A DNA stretch of 24,454 bases, taken from IMG/VR virus record IMGVR_UViG_3300042197_000120, positions 1-24,454 of that record; one strand, 5' to 3'. Position 1 is the first letter of the stretch. The number at the start of each line of letters is the position of its first letter. A program made the translations under genes and the position numbers. The notes under the pieces were generated by a model. The model worked only from the letters and a program-made list of their open reading frames with translations. It searched no databases and had not been told where the DNA came from. This stretch comes from a virus. Below, in pieces: positions 1 through 22,122 of the stretch.

Positions 1-2615
1 GTAAATGTAAATTCTTCAAGTTCTTTATAAGATTTGAAAGGGCGAGCAGCAATATATTTAGCAGCAATATTATTAGAAATAAACTTAATTCCAGTTAACC
101 CAAACCTTATACCTTTGCCTTCAATTTTAAAATCAAAGTCAGAATCGTTAATATGTGGAAGTTTAACAGATATCCCCATACGCTTTGCTTCAATTAGATA
201 CTCTGTTCTACCATCTTTATCTTTTTCATTTTTAAGAAGAGCAAACATAAACTCAAGAGGGTAGTAATATTTTAACCACGCTGTCCAGTACGAGAGAGTA
301 GAGTAAGCAACTGCGTGGCTCTTGTTAAACGAGTACCCCGCATGCGCTTCGAAATCATGCCATAGATCACGAGCCTGATTAGGAGCAATATAGGCAGAAG
401 CGCCAGCAATAAAACGCTCTTTATAAATATCGAACTCTTTCGCATCTTTCTTCTTTCCAATAATTTTACGAACCTTGTCAGCATCAGACATTGACATGCC
501 ACCTAAGTGAACGCAAGCCTGCATAACCTGTTCCTGGTATAGGATACACCCATATGTATCATCTGTAAATTCTTTCATAATCTGATGGATATATGACACA
601 TTTTGCTTACCATGTTTACGAGCAATATAATCTTTACCAATAGTATTCATGGCTCCTGGACGGACTAGAGCGTTAGAGGCTGCTAGTTCGTTAAAGTTCT
701 TTACACCCATCTTAACTAAAAGGTTTGTATATGGTGTTGCTTCACATTGGAATACGCCCTTTGTGTACCCGTCAGAAAGCATCTCATAAACCTTTGGATC
801 TGCCATATCAAGTGATAATAAGTCAATTTCTTGATAGTGATTTTCTTTAATCATTGCAACTGCATCTTGGATTACACTAAGAGTTTTTAACCCAAGCGCA
901 TCAATTTTAATAAGACCAATTTTTTCAGCCTCTTCCATATCAACTCCAACAACTGGAATTCTTTCATCTGAGCCAGGAGAAGAGCGAGTCTCTAATGGAG
1001 CGTATCTAAAAATTGGATTTTTACTAGTAACAACACCAGCAGCATGAATACCAGTTCCTCTGATACGACCACGTAGTTGTTCTCCATATATTTCTACTTC
1101 TGGATATTTCTCACGAAACTCTAGCGTTGTTTTTGAAGTGCAATACTCATCCCATGTATCAACTAGTTTTAAAACCTTGTTAACATCTGTTAAAGGTATA
1201 TCCAATACTCGTGCAACATCTCTTACTACGCCCTTGTCTTTAAACTGCAAAAAGGTAGCAATAGATGCAACGTGTCTATACTGTCTAACTAAATAATCTT
1301 TTACTTCGTCACGGCGTGTATCTTGAATATCTGTGTCAATATCTGGGAAGTCATTACGTTCTGGGTTAATAAAACGGAAAAACAAAAGACCGTGTTCTAT
1401 TGGATCAATTGTTGTAATACCAAGTAAATAACAAACCAAAGAGCCAGCAGAAGATCCACGTCCTGGACCAACTAAAATATTTTCTTTCTTTGCCCAATTT
1501 ATCATATTGCTTACTACAAGAAAGTATGGTGCAAACTTTTTATCTTTAATAATTGATAACTCTTCATCAAGTCTTTGCTCATATATATCATTGCCAAGCC
1601 AATTAGAGTTAAGTCTTTTTTCTTCAAGACCTGCAAGTGCTAGGTTTGCTAACTCTTGATCTGGATCTTTATATTGAACTGGAAGAAGATTTAATCCATC
1701 TTGAATATTATAGTCTTCTACTGTATCTGCTAGTAGTAATGTGTTTGAATAAATGTCTTCTCTATCAATACCCTGCTTTTGCATAGCAGTCTTTATTTCA
1801 TCATAAGATAATAAATGTATGTCAAATTTATTGAATGTAATGTCTCTATCTTTACCATAGAGATAGTCAAGTCTATCCATCATAGAAGAATGTTTTGTAG
1901 ACTTTGCATAAGTTATATCTTTTTGAATTTTAGCATGTGTATTTAATAAAAGTTTAAACTCTTGAACTTCTTTTTGTGATGGATCAACATGATGACAATC
2001 TGGCGTAACAACTACTTTTATACCAAACTCATCTGCAAGTTCAATTAAATATTTATTGATTTCAGGAGTATTATGTGGCATAACCTCGACATAGTAGTCG
2101 CTACCAAAGTTATCTTTAAACCATTGAAGATGCTTCTTTGCAAGTGCAAATTCTTGTTCTTCTAATGCCTTAACAAGAACACTACTTGGACAGGCAGATG
2201 TAACAATAATTCCTTCTTTATATTTTTGTAGTATTGCAAAATCAAACCTTGGCTTTTTAAAGAATCCATCAGTCCATGCAATCTCACTAATTTTATTAAG
2301 ATTTTCTAAACCTTTTTGGTTCTTGGCTAGAAGGATAATGTGGTTATAGACAAGATCTTGTTGACCTTCCCTTTCAGACTTATCTCTTTTATCAGATATG
2401 TCTGCACACATGTATCCTTCTAAGCCAAGGATAGGCTTTACATTATTTGCTTTTGCAATACGGTGCAGTTCCCTATGCCCAGATAAAGTACCGTGGTCAG
2501 TGATTGCTATTGCTGGCATCCCTAACTCAACTGCACGGTTCACATATTCTTCTGGAGTAGCAACACCATCAAATAATGAATAGTGTGTATGTAAATGTAA
2601 GCCTACGTAATTCAT
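1..2615 (-). CDS. dnaE: DNA polymerase III alpha subunit (DnaE-type), 3' end outside window
   Basis: Replicative C-family DNA polymerase. The frame is open from the ATG at 2615 to the window edge (871 codons). An N-terminal PHP domain begins HLHTHYSLFDG (H7, H9, D16) and continues with ITDHG (D40, H41), E66 and a later PDCHH segment, so the metal-binding residues look kept. The polymerase core has GPGRGSSAGS at residues 383-392, PDIDTD at 424-429 (candidate catalytic D425 and D427) and KIDALGLKT with D572, matching the third catalytic aspartate of E. coli DnaE (D555). The helix-hairpin-helix and C-terminal domains would lie beyond the edge; family members are usually 1000-1200 residues. The start lies 1 base after the stop of the ssDNA-binding protein gene, with a weak ribosome site, suggesting translational coupling. 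A retained PHP metal site could provide proofreading; that is inference. Confidence 0.96.
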   Translation of the reverse strand, partial: MNYVGLHLHTHYSLFDGVATPEEYVNRAVELGMPAIAITDHGTLSGHRELHRIAKANNVKPILGLEGYMCADISDKRDKSEREGQQDLVYNHIILLAKNQKGLENLNKISEIAWTDGFFKKPRFDFAILQKYKEGIIVTSACPSSVLVKALEEQEFALAKKHLQWFKDNFGSDYYVEVMPHNTPEINKYLIELADEFGIKVVVTPDCHHVDPSQKEVQEFKLLLNTHAKIQKDITYAKSTKHSSMMDRLDYLYGKDRDITFNKFDIHLLSYDEIKTAMQKQGIDREDIYSNTLLLADTVEDYNIQDGLNLLPVQYKDPDQELANLALAGLEEKRLNSNWLGNDIYEQRLDEELSIIKDKKFAPYFLVVSNMINWAKKENILVGPGRGSSAGSLVCYLLGITTIDPIEHGLLFFRFINPERNDFPDIDTDIQDTRRDEVKDYLVRQYRHVASIATFLQFKDKGVVRDVARVLDIPLTDVNKVLKLVDTWDEYCTSKTTLEFREKYPEVEIYGEQLRGRIRGTGIHAAGVVTSKNPIFRYAPLETRSSPGSDERIPVVGVDMEEAEKIGLIKIDALGLKTLSVIQDAVAMIKENHYQEIDLLSLDMADPKVYEMLSDGYTKGVFQCEATPYTNLLVKMGVKNFNELAASNALVRPGAMNTIGKDYIARKHGKQNVSYIHQIMKEFTDDTYGCILYQEQVMQACVHLGGMSMSDADKVRKIIGKKKDAKEFDIYKERFIAGASAYIAPNQARDLWHDFEAHAGYSFNKSHAVAYSTLSYWTAWLKYYYPLEFMFALLKNEKDKDGRTEYLIEAKRMGISVKLPHINDSDFDFKIEGKGIRFGLTGIKFISNNIAAKYIAARPFKSYKELEEFTF

Positions 2616-2616
2616 C

Positions 2617-3273
2617 TTACCAATCTGTGTTGGTAGCAGATGAAGATGTTGGACCGTCAAAGCCTAAATAGAATGCCTCTTGTTCAGCATAAGGAATTTT
2701 CTTTAATGCTAACTCAAGTGGATAAGGCTTAATTGCTGACCAGTCAAATGGCTCTGTGTCTGGTGCACCTGGAATGGTTGTGTAACTTGTTTCAGTACCC
2801 TGACCATTACGCTTTACTTTCCAGACTACGTTTGATATGCTACCTGTTTCAAGTGCATACTCACGAATTGTGTTGAATGCTGATTGCTTGCTTACACCCA
2901 TTGACCAAATAGCCACATATGGTGCTTCAATGCCGTCGTCGACTAGAACGTTGCAATAGAAACGAAGACGTGCTCTCCAGCCAGCCTTTGGATCTTTACG
3001 GTGCATCTCTTCTGCCCAGTCACGACCTTCTGTTTCCATTGTGTCTACAGCCTTGCGCTTGTAGTCCTTTGGATTTGTGTGTTCTTTTACAACTAGAGCA
3101 AGACCACGATCTGCGCTATAGTTTGCAGAGTCTTCATCTAGTTCCTCAATGAAACGGATTTTTACTGATTGACCATCGGCAAGTTTTAACCATCTTACCT
3201 TTGGAGAGTTTTCATCATATTTTGGTTTGTCGAGCAGGGCATTAATATTTTTGAGTCCCTTTACTACGCTCAT
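2617..3273 (-). CDS. probable single-stranded DNA-binding protein
   Basis: 218 residues, no clear catalytic motif. The segment KVRWLKLADGQSVKIRFIEE (residues 25-44) and the following basic, aromatic-rich stretch resemble the beta-strand start of OB-fold phage ssDNA-binding proteins of the T4 gp32/T7 gp2.5 functional class. The C-terminus is Ser/Asp-containing and ends in an aromatic residue (NTDW), as protein-interaction tails of such proteins often do. The gene sits between primase and DNA polymerase and has its own strong promoter and a strong ribosome site (AGAAGGAGA, about 5 bases before the ATG), consistent with a protein needed in high amount. The role is inferred mainly from position and composition; a recombination mediator or other replication accessory protein is possible. 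Confidence 0.65.
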   Translation of the reverse strand: MSVVKGLKNINALLDKPKYDENSPKVRWLKLADGQSVKIRFIEELDEDSANYSADRGLALVVKEHTNPKDYKRKAVDTMETEGRDWAEEMHRKDPKAGWRARLRFYCNVLVDDGIEAPYVAIWSMGVSKQSAFNTIREYALETGSISNVVWKVKRNGQGTETSYTTIPGAPDTEPFDWSAIKPYPLELALKKIPYAEQEAFYLGFDGPTSSSATNTDW

Positions 3274-3297: not shown

Positions 3298-4221
3298 TTA
3301 GTTTAGCATAGACGATATAGATTTGTCAAACTGAAACTCAATGCTTTTAATTGCATCATCATCCATATCTCCTATGTCCTTATATTTTTTATCTATGTTG
3401 ATTACGCTAACCAATGATCCAAGTTTTTCAATTAACTTGTCTCTCATTATTGATCCAGCCTCATCATTGTCTGCAACAAGCACAACGCTATTGAAGTACT
3501 TTTCTAACAACTTAATCTGTGATGCAGATACGTTAGCCCCCAGTGTTGCAACTGCTGGGAATCCTACTTGGTCTAGTCTGATTGCATCAAAAGATGATTC
3601 AACAACATACACTAGACTAGATGTTTTAACTCTATGCAAATTAAATAATATTTTACCCTTTGGAAGTCCTGGAGTATTTTTAAACTCTTTGCCTTCAACT
3701 GATCTACCAACAAACCCAAGAGTCATTCCGTCTGGAGAATGAACTGGTATAGTAACCATATCTTGTTTTTCAGAGTATCCCAAAGAAAACTTTTTTACTG
3801 AGTCTTCTGTTATAAGTCTATTAGAATAATATCTCATTGCTCTTGGAGATTCTAGGGCTTGATTGTTTAATCTTTTAATTAATACCTCATCATATTGAAT
3901 AAAATCTGGTGGTGCATACATTGTTTTATTAATTACATTTTCAATGTTTGTTTCTGTCTCTTTGCTTTTTATATAACGTGCTGCCTCAAAGTATGTTCTG
4001 CCAGTAACAAACATAACAAACTCTTCAAGATTTTTTGTAATTTGACATCCAAAGCAAAAGAACAAACCACTATCCTTGGCAATTTCTGCAGCAGGAGTTC
4101 TTGTATTATTATGATATGGGCAATAAATAATAAAGTCATTACCAAACTCTGCCTCTATATCAATTCCTGCACCATTTAAAACTCTCTGAATTTGTTCTTT
4201 GCTATAAATATTATTTGCCAT
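3298..4221 (-). CDS. dnaG: DNA primase, CHC2 zinc finger plus TOPRIM
   Basis: Synthesises RNA primers for the replication fork. The N-terminal CHC2-type zinc-binding site is C34, H37, C56, C59 (CPYH and CFGC). A TOPRIM fold follows, with the acidic motif VVESSFDAI (E208) and DNDEAG (D251, D253) as metal-binding residues. At 307 residues it is shorter than cellular DnaG (about 600), lacking a C-terminal helicase-interaction domain of the usual size. The start at 4221 (MANNIYSKEQ) is chosen because AAGGA lies 8 bases upstream. A longer frame adds 12 residues but reaches further into the helicase gene and lacks this site. It overlaps the helicase end by 11 bases, so the two are probably translationally coupled and form a split primase-helicase pair. 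Confidence 0.92.
   Translation of the reverse strand: MANNIYSKEQIQRVLNGAGIDIEAEFGNDFIIYCPYHNNTRTPAAEIAKDSGLFFCFGCQITKNLEEFVMFVTGRTYFEAARYIKSKETETNIENVINKTMYAPPDFIQYDEVLIKRLNNQALESPRAMRYYSNRLITEDSVKKFSLGYSEKQDMVTIPVHSPDGMTLGFVGRSVEGKEFKNTPGLPKGKILFNLHRVKTSSLVYVVESSFDAIRLDQVGFPAVATLGANVSASQIKLLEKYFNSVVLVADNDEAGSIMRDKLIEKLGSLVSVINIDKKYKDIGDMDDDAIKSIEFQFDKSISSMLN
3300..3329 (-). promoter_or_regulatory. strong sigma70-like promoter for ssDNA-binding protein and dnaE
   Basis: Perfect -35 TTGACA (3324-3329), 18-base spacer, extended -10 TGC-TAAACT (-10 at 3300-3305). It lies entirely inside the last codons of the primase gene. The expected transcript start is near 3293, leaving a short leader with the AGAAGGAGA ribosome site. 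The extended -10 block CTATGCTA is shared with the promoter before the short tail chaperone at 20689-20717. Confidence 0.7.
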
Positions 4222-5434
4222 CTTCGTAATCCTTATATCTGTAATAACCCTTATCAAAATCTACCTGTACTAAAAAGTCTCCCATAAATCCATTTCTATT
4301 TTTTCTAAATACGCACTCAATAATATCACTATTAGTTGCACGACCTAATGCCATAACCCAGTCAGCATCATAAGCAATCTGTCTAGACCACGCAGTTTGA
4401 CCAAGTGTTGGCGCACTGCTTAAATCTTTTACATCATCAGGAGTGGCGGAAGAAATAGCAATAATAGGAACCTCTTCGCTAATAGCCATAAGTTTAAGTT
4501 CTCTTGAAAGGTTTTTCATACGTACCGTTTCATTATCAGACTTTTGATTTGGAGACATAAGTTGTAAATAATCTACAATAACAAAGTCTGGTTTGTATTG
4601 ATCTATCTTTCCACGAACTACAGACGGATTAACCTCTCCGCCATTGTCATTTGAAATAATGTGAAACTCTGGCTTTCCTGCCACTTTATTAGCATGCCAA
4701 TTCTTTAACATATCAAGTTCTACTTCACCATTACTTAATTTACGATGAGACCAAACACCTTCACCCATAATTGCAAATACACGATTACGAACTTCAGTCT
4801 CAGACATTTCTAAAGAAATTACTAATGGAGACTTGCCTTGCTTCCATGCTTGTACTGCAAAATAAAGAGCAAGCCAAGACTTACCAATTCCTGGATAGGC
4901 TAAAAAGACACCAAGTTGTCCTGGCATAATTCCAGAAGGTAGGTAATTATCAAAACCTGGCAAACCTGTTTTAATTCCAACTTGACCAGTTAATTTTTGT
5001 TCTTGAATTTTTTCAAAATATGCAAGGGCAGAATCAAGATCTGTAGCATCAATATCACGAATAGCAGAAGTATTTTTCTTTAGTTCAGAGGTCTTTGTAA
5101 TAAGCCCATTGAGTGCCTCTGTGCCATTGCCACCCTGAACCTCACCTGCTGCTGTCCTTAGAATGTCTTTTAGGCTATCGTTTAAGTATTCTGTTTGTAA
5201 CTCTTCAAGATGATGCTTTGTTGCTCCAATACCCTCGACTGGAACAAAGTCTCTAAACTTTTCTACAACTAAAGATGCTGGTGGAATAGATCCATTGTTG
5301 TCAAAATATAAACGAATAAAGTTCCAGACATCATTATGGGTTCTAAGAAGATTTTCTACGTTGGCTTGTAACAATACATGCATTTGTTTATCTTGTAATA
5401 CCGCTGAAATAACTTTTGCTTCTGTATTATTCAC
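4211..5434 (-). CDS. dnaB: replicative DNA helicase, DnaB family
   Basis: Hexameric fork helicase. 407 residues: a small helical N-terminal domain (about 1-110, starting NNTEAKVISAVLQDK), a linker, then a RecA-like motor. Walker A is AYPGIGKS (K185) and Walker B is VIVDYLQLM (D288). The helix SLEMSETEVRNRV and the segment RMKNLSRELKLMA are typical of DnaB-type motors. The start is GTG at 5434, supported by AGAAGGTGG about 5 bases upstream; it overlaps the preceding small gene by 8 bases (GTGAATAA). The primase gene follows with an overlap, so the helicase and primase are made together. Slightly shorter than bacterial DnaB (about 450-470). Confidence 0.93.
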   Translation of the reverse strand: MNNTEAKVISAVLQDKQMHVLLQANVENLLRTHNDVWNFIRLYFDNNGSIPPASLVVEKFRDFVPVEGIGATKHHLEELQTEYLNDSLKDILRTAAGEVQGGNGTEALNGLITKTSELKKNTSAIRDIDATDLDSALAYFEKIQEQKLTGQVGIKTGLPGFDNYLPSGIMPGQLGVFLAYPGIGKSWLALYFAVQAWKQGKSPLVISLEMSETEVRNRVFAIMGEGVWSHRKLSNGEVELDMLKNWHANKVAGKPEFHIISNDNGGEVNPSVVRGKIDQYKPDFVIVDYLQLMSPNQKSDNETVRMKNLSRELKLMAISEEVPIIAISSATPDDVKDLSSAPTLGQTAWSRQIAYDADWVMALGRATNSDIIECVFRKNRNGFMGDFLVQVDFDKGYYRYKDYEDGK

Positions 5435-6662: not shown

Positions 6663-7106
6663 TTAATTTGGAATGCCAATAATTATTAAATTAACTGCTA
6701 AAGATAAATCACCAGAAGCACCGAATCTAACAACTCCTTCTACTTTTGATGTTGTTACTGTTTTTAAAATAACGCTAACATTTTGTCCAGCAGGAGTATT
6801 TCCAATGTTTACTGGAGTTGCTGTGGCTATTGGTTGATATTTAAAGTCACTAGGAAAATCATAGGAAAAAGATTTTTCAGATGCTGCAGTAACAGTAGAG
6901 TTGTTTGCTACCTCTACATAACCACCTATCATGCGAACTTCAGATGTCTTTACGCTTTGTTTTCCAGCACTAACTGTATCAACTGTTGTATAGTTGTAAG
7001 TTGCTGAAGAAACTTCTGTAGATAACTGATTTACTGTATCAACTAACTTATAGATATATGGAACATCTAAAGGTTGACCACGTTCTGGTAACGGTACTTT
7101 TGCCAT
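6663..7106 (-). CDS. minor tail/virion protein
   Basis: 147 residues. The N-terminus PERGQPLDVPYIYKLVDTVN is short and helical, after which the protein is rich in Val, Thr, Ser and Gly in strand-like pattern, as in tail or fibre accessory proteins. No enzyme motif. The ATG at 7106 has a near-perfect ribosome site (TAGGAGG, 5 bases upstream). Last gene of the tail series; a promoter-like element overlaps the end of the preceding gene. Assigned as structural by context and composition. Confidence 0.7.
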   Translation of the reverse strand: MAKVPLPERGQPLDVPYIYKLVDTVNQLSTEVSSATYNYTTVDTVSAGKQSVKTSEVRMIGGYVEVANNSTVTAASEKSFSYDFPSDFKYQPIATATPVNIGNTPAGQNVSVILKTVTTSKVEGVVRFGASGDLSLAVNLIIIGIPN

Positions 7107-7131
7107 TTATTCCTCCTATTTAATTATACCA
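7107..7131 (-). promoter_or_regulatory. possible extended -10 promoter and strong RBS before the last tail gene
   Basis: TGG-TATAAT (-10 at 7123-7128) with no good -35 at normal spacing (best is about 3 of 6 matches). AGGAGG follows about 15 bases later. The -10 overlaps the stop codon of the preceding gene. It could be chance in AT-rich DNA. Confidence 0.35.
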
Positions 7132-13792: not shown

Positions 13793-14440
13793 CTAGACCT
13801 CTTCCAGTGTTACCGATATATTCCAAAGATCATGATTGGTGCCACCACGCTTTACAATAGAATAATTAAAGTCAGAAATATAAACTTGCATTATTTGATT
13901 GTATTGTGCTAGATGTCCATATGAAGCATCTGTAATTTCTCCATCAACTGGAAAGTTACTGTACTTATCATATGCCAAATACATCCAAAATGGACCTTGA
14001 TGGTTTTCATACCAAGAAAGTAATTCTACTCCACCTGCACCACCATCTGATGTAAACTCTCCAGTTGTATTTTTATAGTCTGAAGTTCCAGTAGAATTAA
14101 AAGCAGCATCTTGATAATATGCTCTTGATGGCAAATTATTCCAAGATACAGACATATTTAATTTATCTGCAATATGATAAGATCTCATTCTGCCGTTTAT
14201 TGTTCTTTGGCGTTGCTCAATTCTAACTGGTGTAAATTGTAACTCTCCACGATTATGATCAGAAAGTATTAGGAACTGGTCTATTAGGCTATCAGCAGTG
14301 CCTTCTGGGACTGTAGCGCCTATTTCAAACCCTGTTGGTACATAAAGACCACTTACAAGTGTTCCTGCGTTCTCAGACCATAATAGGGCTTGTGGTCTTT
14401 GATACCTACGTCTACCCGTCATATATGCAGCGGTAGCCAT
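13793..14440 (-). CDS. distal tail protein (Dit-like)
   Basis: 215 residues directly after the tape measure and before the large hub protein, the normal place of the distal tail protein that joins tube to tip. The sequence is beta-rich with a basic N-terminus (TGRRRYQRPQALLW) and a C-terminal strand IVKRGGTNHDLWNISVTLEE resembling the ending strands of tail-tube-like folds. Family is not recognised with certainty; assignment is mainly by position. AGGGGAC precedes the ATG, which overlaps the tape measure stop by 1 base. Confidence 0.72.
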   Translation of the reverse strand: MATAAYMTGRRRYQRPQALLWSENAGTLVSGLYVPTGFEIGATVPEGTADSLIDQFLILSDHNRGELQFTPVRIEQRQRTINGRMRSYHIADKLNMSVSWNNLPSRAYYQDAAFNSTGTSDYKNTTGEFTSDGGAGGVELLSWYENHQGPFWMYLAYDKYSNFPVDGEITDASYGHLAQYNQIMQVYISDFNYSIVKRGGTNHDLWNISVTLEEV

Positions 14441-17400
14441 TATCTTTGTCCCCTAATTCTTTGATTATCAATGTACTTAATCTGTCCAATTACTGCTCTT
14501 GCAATATCGTTTGGATTAGCATTTGATTGTGGTACGTTAATTCCCACATTATAATTATACACGCTACGAGAGTTGTCATTAACAGATGTTACTGCTCCAA
14601 TACCCGCACCTTGACCATTATATGATGATCCTATCATTGATGGGTATTTAGACTCATTTAGCATTGACAATAATGGACCAAACTCTTGGCTAGCCTTTTT
14701 ATTTATTACAAACTCTCCAGGAGTTAACATTGCTGGTACTGTATCAGAACCCATTCTTCCACCAGCAGCAAAATATTTAGGAACTACGCCACCCATATTC
14801 ATAGGCTTTATTTTTCCACCATACATTTTAAATTTATCAAAAAATGAAGTTGAAGTACTAGTTTTAACCGTAGGAGTTGCTTTAGTAGGATCAAGAAGCG
14901 GAGCACTTGTTGTTCCTGTAACATAATTTGTTGTTATTGTAATTGTTTTATTTTTAATTGCATCCCAGTCTTTAAAAATTTGTGAAGTTAGAGCACTTGC
15001 TTTCTTTAAACCTACTTCAGTTAAATCAATAGCAGAGTTTGCGGCTTCAACTCTTACTTTAACAGCATCCCATTCAGTTTGTGTTTTTCCAAGATACTTA
15101 ATACCATTAACAAGTGAGTCTGTTGTTTTATTATAGTTATCAAGGATTTGTTTTGTATCATCAACAATTTTTTGATTTGGAACTATTGATGCTTGTTTAA
15201 TATCATATATTTTTTGTTCAATTAAATAGTTTTTATCTTGAAGTGTTGTAATATCATTTTGCAAGGTTTTTCTTTGTTGTTCAAGAAGAAATGTTTGTTG
15301 ACCAATTTGATATGTACGAGCCTCAATTTGATCTTTTGTCATTCCACCAGCAGTAACTCCAGCAAGTGCTTGTTGACGTGAAGTCTCAAGTGCCTTTGTT
15401 TGTTGATCTATTCTGGATGCTGCAGCCTGTGCTCTTGCATCTTGCACTGCCGCTGCTGCCGCAGCAATATCTCCAGATGTTAATGCATCAGCAATTGTTA
15501 GTCTTGATTTTTCTTGATTTGCAATTTCTTGATTTACAGAAGATATTTTTTCAAGTGCTTGAATTTGTTTATCGTATTGATCATTAATTGCACCTTCTTG
15601 ACGACGAATAATGTCAAGATTATTATTTAATATTGCTGACTCATCTTGTAATTTTTGAATTGGTCTGTCAAATTCAAGTTCAATTCTACGATTTAACAAA
15701 TCAATAGATCTTTGATTTGTATCTATTACTGATTGCTCTGCATCAATTCTTTTTTGTGCTGCATCTATTGCGCCTTGTGCAGTATCAATTTGAGCCTGAT
15801 ATAAGTCTGCTTGAGATTTTCTATTTTGTCTTAATAGTGCTTCTTGAGCATTAAAGAAATTATTAATTGTAGAAAGGTTTTTATCTGCTATTTGTCTGGC
15901 AGTTTCTTTTTGTCCAGTTCCAGTTCCAGTTTCAGTTCCGATAAGTTTTGCTAGTGTTTCTTTTGCAAGTTTTGCTTTTGCAATTGCTCTATTTAAATAC
16001 GCATTTACTCTGCCTTGAGCACGCTGAGCACCACCCTCTGTACTTTTAATAAGTAATTGATCTAGCATTTCTTGTGTTATATACACACCAAGCATTGTTG
16101 CTTCTAATACTCTAAATTGTGTATCCATATCTTTAATGTTGGCTGCTGCTTTTGCAATTTCTGATGGCATAGTTTTTAGCATTTCTGAAAGCACCATCAT
16201 TCCTTGTGCTTTTGGCATTTGCTTTATGCTATTAGAAATTTGATTAAAAGATTCAGTAAATTGATCTGCATTAATTTTTCCAGTTGTTAATTGTGTTTCT
16301 ATTCCCATAAAAAAACTTGAAAAAACTTGAGAAGCAGAAAATAATTTTTGTTTTAATTCGTCAGACGCTTCTCCTATTTCAACTATTTCTCCAGTTGCCA
16401 TAGATCTAACTTTAGTTGTTTTATAACCTTTAGCAAAGGCAAAATTAAAATCATTAACTAATTTAGTTGCTGCATCTTTTAAACCAGCCTGTCCTTCTTT
16501 AGTTGTTAAGTCAATACTATTAACATTAAAAGAAACGTCTAATCTTCCAGCCTCTTGCTGTAATGCATAGATATAATTTTGAATTGCTTCTTTTGTTGCT
16601 CCTTGACCAGCAAGCCTTATTGATAAAGATTTAAATATTAATTCTGCTTGTTCTTTTGTTGCTGCACTTAAACCTTTAACTTGATTTTGAAATTCTTTAT
16701 CTTCTTTAAGTGTTTTTGTTAATTGTTCAACTTGTTGGCTTTGAACTGGAGAAAGTCCAGAAACTTGTGGTTTTGCAAACTCTAAATTACTTTTTACTGG
16801 AGTAAAATTAAGAATTCCTCCAAGTTTTTCTATTTGCTTTGATGTTAAATTAGCAGCCCTACCAACACCCTCAATTGCCATTCTTTCTTTTTCTCTAGCA
16901 TTGTTAATTAATTTAATTATGCCAACTCCTGCGGCAAGTGCTGCTGTAAATGCTAATGCTGGTCCTGGCTTTAATGCAAATAAAAATGTTTTAAATTTAT
17001 TTGGCAATATGTTTAAGATAGTTGAAAGTGCAAAAGCAACTCCACTAAGTTGAAAAACAATACTTGAAAGTTTTCCTAAATTACCACCAGCCATAGATGC
17101 TATTCCAGCAATAGATGTAAGAGCAAACGTTCCACCCATAAGTTTATTATTAAAAGAGGTTAATCTTTGATTAGATTGTTGAATATTTCTTGCTTGCTCT
17201 TTAACTTTATTATTAATTTCTGGACTCATTGGGGCATTTGCTGCTACCATTCCAAGAGGAACTGGTGCACCCTGTGGTCTTGTTGCAACTCTTCTTCCTC
17301 TTTGTGTACCGCCAACTGCAGCGTTAGAAAGATTGGTGCCTGCTTTTGCTACATCATCTTGTCTATCAGCCATTCCAACTTCAAGACCACGAGCAATATC

Positions 17401-20316
17401 TTGACCAATTCTTATTGTTTTTTTAGATGGAGATTCTGTTCCTGCTGCTTGTGCCGTCTTACTTATTGCCATTTGTGCTAAAGATTGAGAACGATTGATA
17501 ACTTGTTTTTCTAATTTTGCAACTTTTCTTTCTACTGTTTTAGCAGCATTAATATCTTTTGCTGGATCATATGTTCTTGATCCTAAAGTTTCATAGTAGT
17601 TTCCAGATAATCTAACTCCAAGACCAGCGGCTGCTGCTTGTCCTTGATATCCTGGGTCTGTCATTCCAACCTGTTGTAATACTTGAGCAGACCTTCTAGT
17701 TGTTGGATGTATTCCTTGTTTAAGTTTATTTAATTCTTCAGCAACTTCTTGAACAGACATATTTAATGTTTGTGCTGCTTTATCAATATGTTGTTTATTA
17801 AAGTTTTCAACTATTGTATTGCTTTGTTGAATAGTGTTAACGTATGCATTAACATATCCAAGATCAGCCTGTAGATTTGAAGCCATCCAGTTTTTAATAT
17901 TAACTTGTTCTTTACCAACCATCATTGAGGTTACATCTGGAACAATATGAGAGGCTTGCTTTCTCTTTAAATTACCAAGTTTTTCATTAACCTTTTGAAC
18001 ATCTGATACTGTTGCGTTTAATATTTGAGATGCTGTTTGTTCAACTGCTGCAAGTTCTGCTGGTAGAGTTTCCCAACTCATTGCTCCAGTTTGTTTAGCC
18101 ACTGCATATGGTGCTCTAAATAAGCCTAAACTTTTTTTAATGTCTCCAAGAGGTAAGCCATCTTTGAATCCAGGAATATTGTCTGCAATCATTCCATTAA
18201 TTAATGGAGCATATTTTTGTGCCATCTTTGAAGGAATAACTGCTTCTCCTGGAGACAGCATTGCTGGAACTATATCTCCTGCACCTTTTGGTCCTGGAAC
18301 ACTTACAATACCGCTTGCTAATTTTCTACCGCCTCTTGGTGGCAACATCATGCCAGGATTATTAAGCATGAATGCATTACCTGCTCTAGTAGCACTTTGA
18401 TATGCAGCGATTAATTGTTGAAGTGCTGCCGTTTCAGCAGTAAATTGTTGTGTTAATTTTGCATGTGATTGATCTAATGAATGTGCTGCAGCGGCTGCTT
18501 CAAGTTGTTCAGTATTTAAATATTGTGTTTGTTCTCCAAGTATTTGTGATTGACCAGTTAGCCTTAAATATCCTTGACGCAAAATCATTGCGCCCTTCAT
18601 TGCATTTGCAAGTGCGTTGGCAAGCAAACCAAATGTCATTAAGAATATTGGTCCAATTGCACCTACTGCAACAGTTAATACTGTAATTAATCTTTTAGTT
18701 CCATCTGAAAGGTTTCCAAATTTTTCTAATACGCCACCAACAAATTCTACAATTGGTGTTGCTGCTTCTAAAAATGCTTGTCCAACTGGAATAAGTGCAA
18801 ACTTAAGATCTTCAACACTTTTTCTAAATCTATTCATTGCAGAATCTGCAGTCATTCCTAATTCTTGTTCAGACAATGAAGAAAGTTCTTCAACTGAGGC
18901 ATTTGCTAAATCAAGAACACGAGAGGCTTGATTGCCGTCTCTAGCAACGTTAGCAAATAATGTTGATAAACGAGCAAACTGGAACTTACCAAACATTTGC
19001 TCAATTGCTCTTGCTCTAGCAAGTGGATCTAGTGCATTTAGTGCTTCAGCAAAATCAACTACCGTTGCTTTCAAATCACCTTTATTTTTTTCTACAATTG
19101 CTGTTGCATTAATACCAAAACTAGCAAGCATATCTGATGCTTTTTTAGTTGGGTTAATTAATGCTGCAAGACCAGATTTAAGTGCGTTAGCACCTTCTGA
19201 TGCATTGATGCCGCCTTCTTTTAATGCTGCAATAAAGAATGTTAAATCTTTTACATCTCCACCAAGTTGTTGAATAACTGGTGCTACTTTTGGAATAGCG
19301 GTAGTAATGTCATCAAGAGATACAACAGTCTGGTTTTCTACTGCGTTTAAGAAGTTGATAGAATCTGCAAGACTTTCAGATGACATACCAAAAGCATTTT
19401 GTAATGAAATTGTTGTTTCAAGTGCCTTTTGACTATCAATCTGACCAAGAATAGAAAGTCGTGTTGCTTCTGTAGTTTGACGTTGTAAGTCTAGTCCTTG
19501 AAAGCCTGCTGCTGCTGCTTCTGCCGCTAAACCAACTGTAGTAGAAACCGCTACACCATATTTAGTAAACTGTCTGCCAAGTTCTGTAACATCATCTAAT
19601 GCTTGTTGAGTCTCAGCCTTTGGGGTAAATAAATCTCCATAAACTTTTCTAAATTTAAGCGCTTGGGCTTCCATATCCATAAAGGTTTTTGTAGCGGTAG
19701 ACCCAACAATAGAAAGCGGTATTGTAAAACCAACCATAAGTTGGCGACCAGCCCACTGTGTATTTTTACCAAAGTTTAAAAGGTTGGTAGTGCCTTGTTT
19801 CATTAATTGATTAAATAATGCTTGTTTCTGCGCTGCTATGGCTGTTCTTGTACCATAGTCTTGCATGTTAAGAGCGGTAGGTCTAACAGCAATTGCTTCC
19901 ATTGCTCCACTGGCATTACGACCCATTTTAATATATTGGGTTTGTAATGTTTTTACACGTTCTTCGGCTACCTTGCCAATTGTGTCAAATTCTGACCTAA
20001 ACAATCTGCCAAATGTTTTTGTAGATGCACCAGCATAGCGGAAGTACTCCCGCATTGAAAATTTATTTTTTTCTAAAGAGTTAGTAAAAGACTCTGCGCT
20101 TGTTCTTACGGTCCGAAGTTCTGCAGAAAAAGCACCAATTGAGTTGATACTACCAAGTAAATTTTTCTGCAGAGACTTCTGAGCGATTGCTGCTGATTCG
20201 CTGGACCTAGCAATAGAAGAGTGAAACTGAGATATCTGTCTCTGTAAAGCCTTTAGTTGTGCTAATGCTTCCGACGTATCTATACTTACGCCAATATTAG
20301 CATTAACATCAGCCAT
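14440..20316 (-). CDS. tail tape measure protein
   Basis: 1958 residues, by far the longest gene. It sets tail length; at about 0.15 nm per residue the tail would be near 290 nm. A TP901-type domain lies at about 180-460 (GRQLMVGFTIPLSIVGSTAT, later FFIAALKEGGINASEGANAL). Hydrophobic segments occur at about 540-575 and 1060-1140 and could enter the host membrane during DNA delivery. Long Gln/Asp-rich coiled coil spans about 1490-1710. A VPAML[ST]PGE motif occurs twice, near residues 679-690 and 1856-1868, each next to a Gly-rich stretch. No peptidase or lysozyme domain is evident. The ATG has AGAAGGTG about 7 bases upstream. Confidence 0.96.
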   Translation of the reverse strand: MADVNANIGVSIDTSEALAQLKALQRQISQFHSSIARSSESAAIAQKSLQKNLLGSINSIGAFSAELRTVRTSAESFTNSLEKNKFSMREYFRYAGASTKTFGRLFRSEFDTIGKVAEERVKTLQTQYIKMGRNASGAMEAIAVRPTALNMQDYGTRTAIAAQKQALFNQLMKQGTTNLLNFGKNTQWAGRQLMVGFTIPLSIVGSTATKTFMDMEAQALKFRKVYGDLFTPKAETQQALDDVTELGRQFTKYGVAVSTTVGLAAEAAAAGFQGLDLQRQTTEATRLSILGQIDSQKALETTISLQNAFGMSSESLADSINFLNAVENQTVVSLDDITTAIPKVAPVIQQLGGDVKDLTFFIAALKEGGINASEGANALKSGLAALINPTKKASDMLASFGINATAIVEKNKGDLKATVVDFAEALNALDPLARARAIEQMFGKFQFARLSTLFANVARDGNQASRVLDLANASVEELSSLSEQELGMTADSAMNRFRKSVEDLKFALIPVGQAFLEAATPIVEFVGGVLEKFGNLSDGTKRLITVLTVAVGAIGPIFLMTFGLLANALANAMKGAMILRQGYLRLTGQSQILGEQTQYLNTEQLEAAAAAHSLDQSHAKLTQQFTAETAALQQLIAAYQSATRAGNAFMLNNPGMMLPPRGGRKLASGIVSVPGPKGAGDIVPAMLSPGEAVIPSKMAQKYAPLINGMIADNIPGFKDGLPLGDIKKSLGLFRAPYAVAKQTGAMSWETLPAELAAVEQTASQILNATVSDVQKVNEKLGNLKRKQASHIVPDVTSMMVGKEQVNIKNWMASNLQADLGYVNAYVNTIQQSNTIVENFNKQHIDKAAQTLNMSVQEVAEELNKLKQGIHPTTRRSAQVLQQVGMTDPGYQGQAAAAGLGVRLSGNYYETLGSRTYDPAKDINAAKTVERKVAKLEKQVINRSQSLAQMAISKTAQAAGTESPSKKTIRIGQDIARGLEVGMADRQDDVAKAGTNLSNAAVGGTQRGRRVATRPQGAPVPLGMVAANAPMSPEINNKVKEQARNIQQSNQRLTSFNNKLMGGTFALTSIAGIASMAGGNLGKLSSIVFQLSGVAFALSTILNILPNKFKTFLFALKPGPALAFTAALAAGVGIIKLINNAREKERMAIEGVGRAANLTSKQIEKLGGILNFTPVKSNLEFAKPQVSGLSPVQSQQVEQLTKTLKEDKEFQNQVKGLSAATKEQAELIFKSLSIRLAGQGATKEAIQNYIYALQQEAGRLDVSFNVNSIDLTTKEGQAGLKDAATKLVNDFNFAFAKGYKTTKVRSMATGEIVEIGEASDELKQKLFSASQVFSSFFMGIETQLTTGKINADQFTESFNQISNSIKQMPKAQGMMVLSEMLKTMPSEIAKAAANIKDMDTQFRVLEATMLGVYITQEMLDQLLIKSTEGGAQRAQGRVNAYLNRAIAKAKLAKETLAKLIGTETGTGTGQKETARQIADKNLSTINNFFNAQEALLRQNRKSQADLYQAQIDTAQGAIDAAQKRIDAEQSVIDTNQRSIDLLNRRIELEFDRPIQKLQDESAILNNNLDIIRRQEGAINDQYDKQIQALEKISSVNQEIANQEKSRLTIADALTSGDIAAAAAAVQDARAQAAASRIDQQTKALETSRQQALAGVTAGGMTKDQIEARTYQIGQQTFLLEQQRKTLQNDITTLQDKNYLIEQKIYDIKQASIVPNQKIVDDTKQILDNYNKTTDSLVNGIKYLGKTQTEWDAVKVRVEAANSAIDLTEVGLKKASALTSQIFKDWDAIKNKTITITTNYVTGTTSAPLLDPTKATPTVKTSTSTSFFDKFKMYGGKIKPMNMGGVVPKYFAAGGRMGSDTVPAMLTPGEFVINKKASQEFGPLLSMLNESKYPSMIGSSYNGQGAGIGAVTSVNDNSRSVYNYNVGINVPQSNANPNDIARAVIGQIKYIDNQRIRGQR

Positions 20317-20341: not shown

Positions 20342-20665
20342 TTATTCCTGTGGATTAAGAATGTCTGTAACAGATGACAGATTAATGCCAGATGCTGCTT
20401 CAACAATTTTATACACAGTTGGAAGATCAAGAAGATCTTCTAATTTTTGAATGTCTCCAGCCAATTCTGGCTTGTATTGCTCCATAGCAATTTGTACACA
20501 TTCAACTAACAGAGTCATTGATTTCTCATTGTCCTCTGCAACCTTAGCCACCCCTTCAAACTTCTTCATAAACGGACGAAGAAGAGAGATTTTTAACGGG
20601 CGAACTGTTATTTTTGTTCCATCAATAAGGGTGACTTGGTCAGCCTCATGCACGGTTGTCGCCAT
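20342..20665 (-). CDS. tail assembly chaperone, short form
   Basis: 107 residues, lying between the long chaperone and the tape measure, where lambda G-type chaperones sit. It is a clear paralogue of the long chaperone: shared MATT, DGT, PLKI, LR-FM, LVECV, PT-YKI and SGI/AGI blocks, about 40% identity by eye over 98 residues. It stops after the shared domain (ILNPQE). Only 25 bases separate it from the tape measure, so there is no downstream frame into which a frameshift could extend it. It has its own strong promoter and AGGAGG ribosome site. Known chaperones coat the tape measure and recruit tail tube subunits; that role is by family position. Confidence 0.83.
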   Translation of the reverse strand: MATTVHEADQVTLIDGTKITVRPLKISLLRPFMKKFEGVAKVAEDNEKSMTLLVECVQIAMEQYKPELAGDIQKLEDLLDLPTVYKIVEAASGINLSSVTDILNPQE

Positions 20666-20688
20666 ATTTCCTCCTATAGGTTATGTCA

Positions 20689-20717
20689 ATTATAGCATAG
20701 GAAGGCTATTTTGTTAG
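20689..20717 (-). promoter_or_regulatory. promoter for short chaperone and tape measure
   Basis: Extended -10 TGC-TATAAT (-10 at 20689-20694, 6 of 6) with -35 CTAACA (20712-20717, 4 of 6) at 17-base spacing. The -35 overlaps the end of the long chaperone gene. The block CTATGCTA is identical to that in the 3300-3329 promoter. AGGAGG follows within 20 bases. Confidence 0.65.
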
Positions 20718-21401
20718 GTCTTCGTAATCCAATCCCATACCAATACCAAACCCTACTTTTTGAGCATTTGGACCCTGCAATGCTAAAACATCATTTGAAT
20801 CTTTTGTTTGACCACCACTAAAGACTCTGGCTTTCATGTCTTCCCATTCTTTTTGACCACGACTTTTATCTGACTGCTCGTCTAAATCTACACCCTGAAT
20901 TGCTGCTAAAAACTTTTTTTCAGTATAGTCTAACTCTCTACTTACTTCAAGTGTTGCTATTAATTCAGGCATTGAAAGAGATTTTTCTAGTTCCTGATAA
21001 TCTTTCCAAATACCCAACAAAAATACTTCAGATTCTAATTTTGCAAGATCTAGGCTTTCCCAGGTTTGACCACTATCAAGGGCTTGTTCTTTAACTGGTT
21101 CTTGAGATTTTTTATTAATACGAATACCAGCAGATGTGTCCAAAATCTTATAAATTGTTGGCATATCTATATTATCTTCAATCTGTTCTACCGTGCCAGA
21201 TATTTTAGGATAGTACTGCTTCATGCAGATTCTAACACATTCTACTAAAACTGCTATTGCTTCATCATCATTTTTTGTATTTTTAATATTTTCAAAGGCA
21301 TCCATAAACTCACGTAAATACTTGATCTTTAATGGTACTATTTCTAATTCAGTACCGTCAAATAAATATACAATTTGACTGTTATATATTGTGGTTGCCA
21401 T
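20706..21401 (-). CDS. tail assembly chaperone, long form
   Basis: 231 residues from the ATG at 21401. That start aligns exactly with the short paralogue (both MATT) and has GGA upstream; an earlier GTG at 21419 is less likely. Residues 1-95 match the short chaperone. Residues about 100-231 are an acidic, helical extension with MPELIATLEVSRELDYTEKK (split) and FLAAIQGVDLDE, then a Gly-rich end. This resembles the lambda GT arrangement (G domain plus T extension), but encoded in one continuous frame. It follows the terminator after the major tail gene. An A6 run at 21108-21113 marks the junction between shared and unique parts. Confidence 0.83.
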   Translation of the reverse strand: MATTIYNSQIVYLFDGTELEIVPLKIKYLREFMDAFENIKNTKNDDEAIAVLVECVRICMKQYYPKISGTVEQIEDNIDMPTIYKILDTSAGIRINKKSQEPVKEQALDSGQTWESLDLAKLESEVFLLGIWKDYQELEKSLSMPELIATLEVSRELDYTEKKFLAAIQGVDLDEQSDKSRGQKEWEDMKARVFSGGQTKDSNDVLALQGPNAQKVGFGIGMGLDYEDLTK

Positions 21402-21409
21402 AGAATTCC

Positions 21410-21438
21410 ATTTTACCACAAACAGCCTTAATACACAA
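21410..21438 (-). promoter_or_regulatory. possible promoter for long chaperone, near-leaderless
   Basis: Extended -10 TGG-TAAAAT (-10 at 21410-21415), 17-base spacer, weak -35 TTGTGT (21433-21438, 3 of 6) that overlaps the T-run of the terminator. The ATG follows the -10 by 8 bases, so a transcript starting here would have almost no leader. Confidence 0.35.
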
Positions 21439-21467
21439 AAAAACCCACTTCCGAAGAAATGGGTTTT
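21437..21467 (-). terminator. intrinsic terminator with cUUCGg tetraloop after major tail gene
   Basis: Minus-strand RNA forms a 12-bp stem (arms 21456-21467 and 21440-21451, one G-U pair) closed by C(UUCG)G, followed by a run of 7 U (21437-21443, partly in the stem). On the plus strand the G-U pair becomes a C-A mismatch, so the element is built for minus-strand transcripts. It lies 16 bases past the major tail stop codon. Confidence 0.85.
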
Positions 21468-21483
21468 AATGTTTTAGAACTGA

Positions 21484-22122
21484 TTAGGAAAGTGTATCTC
21501 CGAAAGTACGATCTACGATCTTTCCATATGATCCAGAAGTATCTTCTGGTAGTAGACGGAATGAAACTTCAAACATTGAAGGCTCATCACGCTTTGCTGA
21601 AACTGTTACGTTTTCGATTGACAAAGCACGGTATGCTGTGTAAACACGTTCTACGTCTGCAGAGGTAGCACAGTCACCTGTACCTGGACCTACTGCAACA
21701 ATTCCACGCTCTACTGGACATTCACCTAGTTCACCTGCAGAAAGGTTAAGAATCCGTCCTGAGTGAGTAGCCTTGTTTCCAGTTAATTGTGCATCAGTAA
21801 ACGCTAATGCAAGAAGCAAGTTTTCTAGGGTTGCTTCAGCAAAAGCGGTTGCAAGATTAACCTGCATGCCTTGCTTATAAAGTTTTGCAACGTCAAGAAT
21901 TTGATCAACCTGTACTTCACCGAAGTCTGGTTGGAACTGTAATTCTAGACCGTTCATTGTGTAACCTACGTTAGTATAGTCTGCATCGTCAGCAAGTGTT
22001 TCTCTGAATGATACTTCAGTACTAAAGTTTTCCAAAGTGCTTGGAGTTAGCGTTGTGTCTGCAACGAAAAGTGCTGCTGCACCAACGATAATATTGGTCG
22101 AACTTCCACGGCTATATGGCAT
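21484..22122 (-). CDS. major tail (tube) protein
   Basis: 212 residues. Position before chaperones and tape measure, and the fold-like pattern (N-terminal MPYSRGSSTNIIVGAAALFV, GLELQFQPDFGEVQVDQILD, ending VSFRLLPEDTSGSYGKIVDR), fit a siphophage tail tube protein that polymerises around the tape measure. The ribosome site is strong (AAAGAGGTG, 6 bases before the ATG) in a 77-base leader, and a terminator follows closely, as expected for an abundant protein made from its own short message or an attenuated long one. Confidence 0.87.
   Translation of the reverse strand: MPYSRGSSTNIIVGAAALFVADTTLTPSTLENFSTEVSFRETLADDADYTNVGYTMNGLELQFQPDFGEVQVDQILDVAKLYKQGMQVNLATAFAEATLENLLLALAFTDAQLTGNKATHSGRILNLSAGELGECPVERGIVAVGPGTGDCATSADVERVYTAYRALSIENVTVSAKRDEPSMFEVSFRLLPEDTSGSYGKIVDRTFGDTLS

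Follow-up and report, generated by a model that had tools for sequence, protein, structure and literature searches.

The window analyzed here, meaning the whole 24,454-nucleotide stretch of DNA, is a 24-kb fragment, the viral record IMGVR_UViG_3300042197_000120. On its minus strand, a major tail protein gene is followed in order by an intrinsic terminator, a long gene, a short gene, and the tape measure gene (Table 1). The long and short genes are separated by 40 nt. Only 25 nt lie between the short-gene stop and the tape measure start, so the short gene has no downstream frame into which to slip, in agreement with the original prediction. The major tail protein gene shares both its position and the name of its profile ("protein with Ig domain") with the annotated major tail protein of phage BillNye, and a tape measure is annotated at the same place in Stanwilliamsviridae. 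Directly beyond the tail genes lie genes for a DNA polymerase III alpha subunit with PHP, NTPase, and finger domains, which runs off the window edge, and for a DnaB-like helicase.

Table 1. Features of the locus and of its surroundings in the window.
Feature	Coordinates	Strand	Details
Major tail protein gene	21484..22122	-	212 aa; phrog_2175, E = 7e-33; upstream neighbor of long gene
Intrinsic terminator past major tail protein gene	21440..21467	-	12-bp stem, UUCG loop, T run
Extended -10 promoter of long gene	21410..21418	-	TGGTAAAAT; 8 nt to ATG; predicted leaderless mRNA
Long tail assembly chaperone gene	20706..21401	-	231 aa; G domain and in-frame T domain
T domain of long gene	20706..21065	-	Residues 113-231; phrog_10474; aligns to -1-frame ORFs of Braelyn and BillNye
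Extended -10 promoter of short gene	20689..20697	-	TGCTATAAT; predicted, leadered
Shine-Dalgarno AGGAGG of short gene	20670..20675	-	Median anti-SD energy of short genes -10.2 kcal/mol
Short tail assembly chaperone gene	20342..20665	-	107 aa; G domain only
Tape measure protein gene	14440..20316	-	1958 aa; downstream neighbor; by position and length
Further extended -10, then AGGAGG	7123-7131	-	TGGTATAAT; upstream of gene 6663-7106
DnaB-like helicase gene	4211-5434	-	
DNA polymerase III alpha subunit gene	3-2660	-	

The long and short proteins both begin with MATT and align by BLASTP over 97 residues with 43% identity and 73% positives (E = 4e-31). A search of the whole window record with the short protein returned matches at these two genes only. 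The two N-terminal domains hit one shared profile, phrog_10504 (E = 2e-23 and 1e-20), and the extension of the long gene, about 133 aa, matches a separate profile, phrog_10474 (E = 1e-15). No Pfam family was found for either protein. The original prediction of two complete genes that share an N-terminal domain, the upstream one alone carrying an in-frame extension of some 130 residues, is thus upheld with exact coordinates, and the profile comparison proposed for both proteins gave significant matches.

Encoded between the major tail protein and tape measure genes, as G/GT-type tail assembly chaperones are, the pair also has the G/GT layout: a short and a long product, a common N-terminal (G) domain, and an extra C-terminal (T) domain on the long one. 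The good profile matches are to unnamed PHROGs, while the named chaperone profile is matched weakly (best E = 0.001). AlphaFold2 models were obtained for the long (78.7 pLDDT) and short (66.1 pLDDT) proteins. Searched against BFVD with Foldseek, the long model matches an uncultured phage chaperone (E = 4.5e-4), the GT protein of N15 (E = 7.7e-3, probability 0.93), and the frameshift chaperone of Enterococcus phage EfaCPT1 (probability 0.98). Profile and fold searches of the PDB returned nothing significant; the short model, at 66 pLDDT, gave a weak full-length match to the HK97 chaperone 2ob9 (E = 6.7, TM 0.44). The place of the two genes, the domain that they share, and their homology to frameshift chaperones of annotated phages (described below) identify the pair as a short G-like and a long GT-like tail assembly chaperone of an actinobacterial phage related to Stanwilliamsviridae.

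Six scans of IMG/VR fetched 309 loci with both a long and a short gene, corresponding to 197 distinct sequences, so the survey of related phages proposed at the outset recovered the same pair widely. The T domain is in frame with G in the window and in all 309 of these duplicated-type relatives. A single-G frameshift form was found in 154 loci, a count that takes in annotated phages, and there T is always in the -1 frame. None of the loci surveyed mixes the two states, and differently centered viral scans yielded no intermediates, whether a fused gene without a short one or a frameshift gene with an extra G. Twenty further loci are incomplete places, most of them starting or ending at a contig edge beside the genes; in one of the twenty (L166), G is diverged and was missed by the search. 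Among 15 records of 86 to 125 kb, the 10 of the duplicated type have exactly two G domains and one T domain each, and the 5 of the frameshift type exactly one of each. Recurrence of the pair in so many fetched loci shows that it is neither chance nor a sequencing error, and a contig error or a single-phage oddity is ruled out by the 197 distinct loci. WhiB is encoded in 14 of the 15 long records, and in control genomes it was matched only in Corynebacterium, which makes Actinobacteria the very likely hosts. No prophage or host copies were matched in host genome contigs. From these sequences, the duplicated pair is seen to be a property of a large family of freshwater viruses whose predicted hosts are actinobacteria.

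A tblastn search of annotated phages returned 130 records, 127 of which are Streptomyces phages. Those whose taxonomy was read belong to Stanwilliamsviridae and have a single G open reading frame (ORF), with the T ORF lying in the -1 frame. T-domain homologues, with the same neighboring genes, are present in Braelyn, BillNye, Yaboi, and Stigma and in the Rhodococcus phages NiceHouse and Francesca, and G-domain homologues of the window pair are found in the Streptomyces phages among these. A joined CDS is annotated at the G-T junction in Yaboi, Stigma, NiceHouse, and Francesca, and in Braelyn and BillNye the -1-frame ORF can be aligned to the T domain of the window. Sister freshwater phages also have the frameshift form, with a single G gene and T in the -1 frame. 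A slippery heptamer is present in 91 of 101 distinct frameshift junctions (C CCA AAY in 90, GGGAAAA in 1) versus 18 of 169 distinct junctions of the long gene, only 1 of the 18 being CCCAAAT. That one is the basal long gene L160, which keeps AAC CCA AAT in the zero frame; its neighbor L159 has AAC CCC AAA A at the junction. A vestige of the slippery site (C CCA AAT, CCCCAAAA) is thus kept in zero frame in basal long genes. The tail of some short genes (GAT GCA AAC) likewise resembles the region of the frameshift peptide (GAC CCA AAC).

An unrooted FastTree phylogeny of the G domain separates the frameshift, long, and short sequences as exact bipartitions (support 0.95, 0.65, and 0.98, respectively). 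When the T-domain tree is rooted on the frameshift phages of Rhodococcus, duplicated-type T domains are monophyletic (97.7/100) and fall beside the T domains of freshwater frameshift phages (88.6/97), within frameshift diversity. A tree that unites every frameshift T domain outside Rhodococcus, Streptomyces and freshwater alike, in one clade was not rejected by an approximately unbiased (AU) test; the duplicated clade is flanked by frameshift phages in that tree also. The ratio dN/dS is alike at 0.12 to 0.13 in the G and T domains of the long gene and in the short gene, and such equal, low values indicate that both genes do selected work. Because duplicated T domains fall among frameshift lineages and the G domains form three clades, the simplest account is one old duplication that replaced the frameshift. 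By sequence comparison, an ancestral single gene with a programmed -1 frameshift duplicated once, one copy becoming an in-frame G-T fusion that lost the slippery site and the other keeping G only, with both retained under purifying selection since. The proposal that gene duplication replaced the frameshift, made initially from the window alone, is supported by homologues with a single G and a -1-frame T, by the slippery heptamer in 91 of 101 of their junctions, and by the nesting in the tree.

The two genes have different start signals. Upstream of the long gene, the terminator past the major tail protein gene has a fold of -19.3 kcal/mol (z = -5.7), and a terminator (stem of at least 8 bp and a T run) is present in 89% of 158 distinct duplicated-type upstream regions versus 2% of shuffles, with 97 distinct stems represented. 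A TGN plus -10 element precedes the long gene in 96% of 91 nonredundant relatives compared with 7% in shuffles, and in 84 of the 91 the extended -10 ends 6 to 9 nt from the start. The long gene is without a Shine-Dalgarno sequence, its median anti-SD energy of -2.8 kcal/mol comparing with about -3 for shuffles. A TA-like signal (TANNNT) some 10 to 12 bp before the start codon is an accepted mark of leaderless genes, which are frequent in Actinobacteria (PMC3160421). The long gene has TANNNT at the expected distance and lacks a Shine-Dalgarno sequence, and its mRNA is predicted from these signals to be leaderless. Of the long genes, 90% carry this leaderless signal; four neighboring gene starts, the short genes, and the frameshift-type G genes all lack it.

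The short gene, on the other hand, has a median anti-SD energy of -10.2 kcal/mol, against the values above for the long gene and for shuffles, and in 80 of 85 nonredundant relatives a TATAAT lies 23 to 36 nt before its start. Frameshift-type G genes similarly have a leadered promoter and a strong Shine-Dalgarno sequence, and a promoter and terminator also precede G in several Stanwilliamsviridae and Rhodococcus frameshift relatives. Judged by this resemblance, the ancestral start signals seem to have passed to the short copy, the long copy appearing to have new ones. The terminator, the separate promoters, and the predicted leaderless start are additions to the original prediction, and together they suggest how the ratio of the two forms is now set.

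In lambda, the G domains of G and GT coat the tape measure protein and T recruits the tail tube protein. By analogy, both forms here would bind along the tape measure protein through their G domains, leaving the few T domains to bring in the tail tube protein. The terminator may isolate the long gene from transcription of the major tail protein gene. The long form would be scarce, transcribed as a leaderless mRNA off a weaker extended -10 promoter of its own. The short form would be in excess, owing to a strong promoter and a strong Shine-Dalgarno sequence, both similar to those of the ancestral G gene. With the one expressed weakly from a leaderless mRNA and the other strongly from a leadered mRNA, a lambda-like ratio could be reproduced, and the strength of transcription and initiation would have taken over from frameshift efficiency in setting the excess. 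Lambda makes about 30 copies of G for each GT, a ratio that is important for assembly (PMC5009743). Transcription of the long gene may continue into the short one, in which case promoter strength would map only roughly to the ratio here. Taken as a whole, the best explanation is probably that duplication replaced the frameshift and that transcription and translation initiation now set the ratio.

Other explanations share parts of this evidence. Both forms could come from two genes yet be made mainly off one upstream transcript, the extra promoters serving timing rather than the ratio. The genes are only 40 nt apart, nothing terminator-like was found between them, and leaderless mRNAs can be well translated in actinobacteria, all of which would fit such a transcript; the conserved terminator before the long gene (89% versus 2% in shuffles), the conservation of both promoters, and the strong contrast in Shine-Dalgarno sequences make it unlikely. 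Still less probable is an origin of the short gene in another phage rather than by duplication in place. Although roughly the same distance separates the long, short, and frameshift G clades in the unrooted tree (34 to 43% identity), as such an acquisition would allow, the long and short proteins are nearest each other, their genes are adjacent, and MATT begins both. Moreover, the two genes always occur together, no phage with the short type alone having been found among the loci surveyed.

A further possibility is continued frameshifting in the long gene, which would then yield a short form of its own, the separate short gene having taken another role. Codons 96 to 99 of the window long gene, AAT AAA AAA TCT, place an A6 run at the G-T junction that could, from its sequence, permit low-level slippage. 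Such a run is present in 43% of distinct long junctions, and the short protein sits on a long stem branch in the G tree, as might be expected had its role changed. The run is not conserved, however, and was rejected as a working slip site for that reason, and canonical heptamers are as rare in long junctions (18/169) as they are common in the frameshift relatives (91/101). The short gene, for its part, is always present and always G-like, is under equal constraint, and has the strongest start signals. We consider slippage in the long gene very improbable, on a par with acquisition of the short gene. On balance, we lean toward a broader form of the duplication reading, in which a whole lineage of actinobacterial siphophages would have exchanged recoding for duplication with divided start signals: the rare long form from a leaderless mRNA, the abundant short form from a promoter and Shine-Dalgarno sequence resembling those of the ancestral gene, and the ratio from transcription and initiation.

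Few recoding events in phages are as conserved as the G/GT frameshift, which is rarely lost. The locus described here shares with lambda G/GT and other siphophage -1 frameshift chaperones the order of major tail protein, G, T, and tape measure, as well as the shared N-terminal domain. It differs in having two genes, an in-frame T, no slippery site, and separate promoters; a T in the -1 frame with a slippery site in the overlap, the mark of programmed -1 frameshifting, is not found in the duplicated type. The Stanwilliamsviridae and Rhodococcus phages, in contrast, have one G gene, a -1-frame T, and a slippery site. The arrangement had been thought undescribed, which does not hold in general: some T4-like phages are reported to have one short gene and one long fusion gene without a frameshift (PMC10885494, citing Vladimirov et al. 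2022). As described in that citing paper, these split chaperones resemble the present pair in being a short and a fusion gene, but they are from contractile-tailed phages of another lineage. In some EA subclusters of Microbacterium phages, chaperone ORFs are reported as separately expressed with no evident frameshift while sister subclusters frameshift (PMC7302621); these are separate ORFs as here, though not stated to be short-plus-fusion paralogues. A limited search of open-access literature found no account of such a pair in long-tailed phages of actinobacteria, with a different start signal for each gene and one of the starts predicted to be leaderless. By sequence comparison, we regard the present case as an independent occurrence in long-tailed actinobacterial phages whose sister groups keep the ancestral frameshift.

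Set against its closest relatives, the family illustrates the loss of a recoding trick that is otherwise nearly universal. Related phages carry duplicated and frameshifting versions of one homologous locus, with a slippery vestige in basal members, and with both versions available one can ask directly whether the ratio alone matters. The phages also provide pairs in which leaderless and leadered mRNAs appear to set stoichiometry. For annotators, such gene pairs are a warning against forcing a frameshift onto them.

Start codons also vary among these genes. TTG is the start codon in 12 of 16 nonredundant frameshift-type G genes despite a near-perfect Shine-Dalgarno sequence (L180-L252, L333-L405), whereas in the duplicated type both the long and the short genes use ATG. 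Elsewhere in the window, a further extended -10 followed by AGGAGG precedes another gene (Table 1), suggesting several internal promoters among the late genes.
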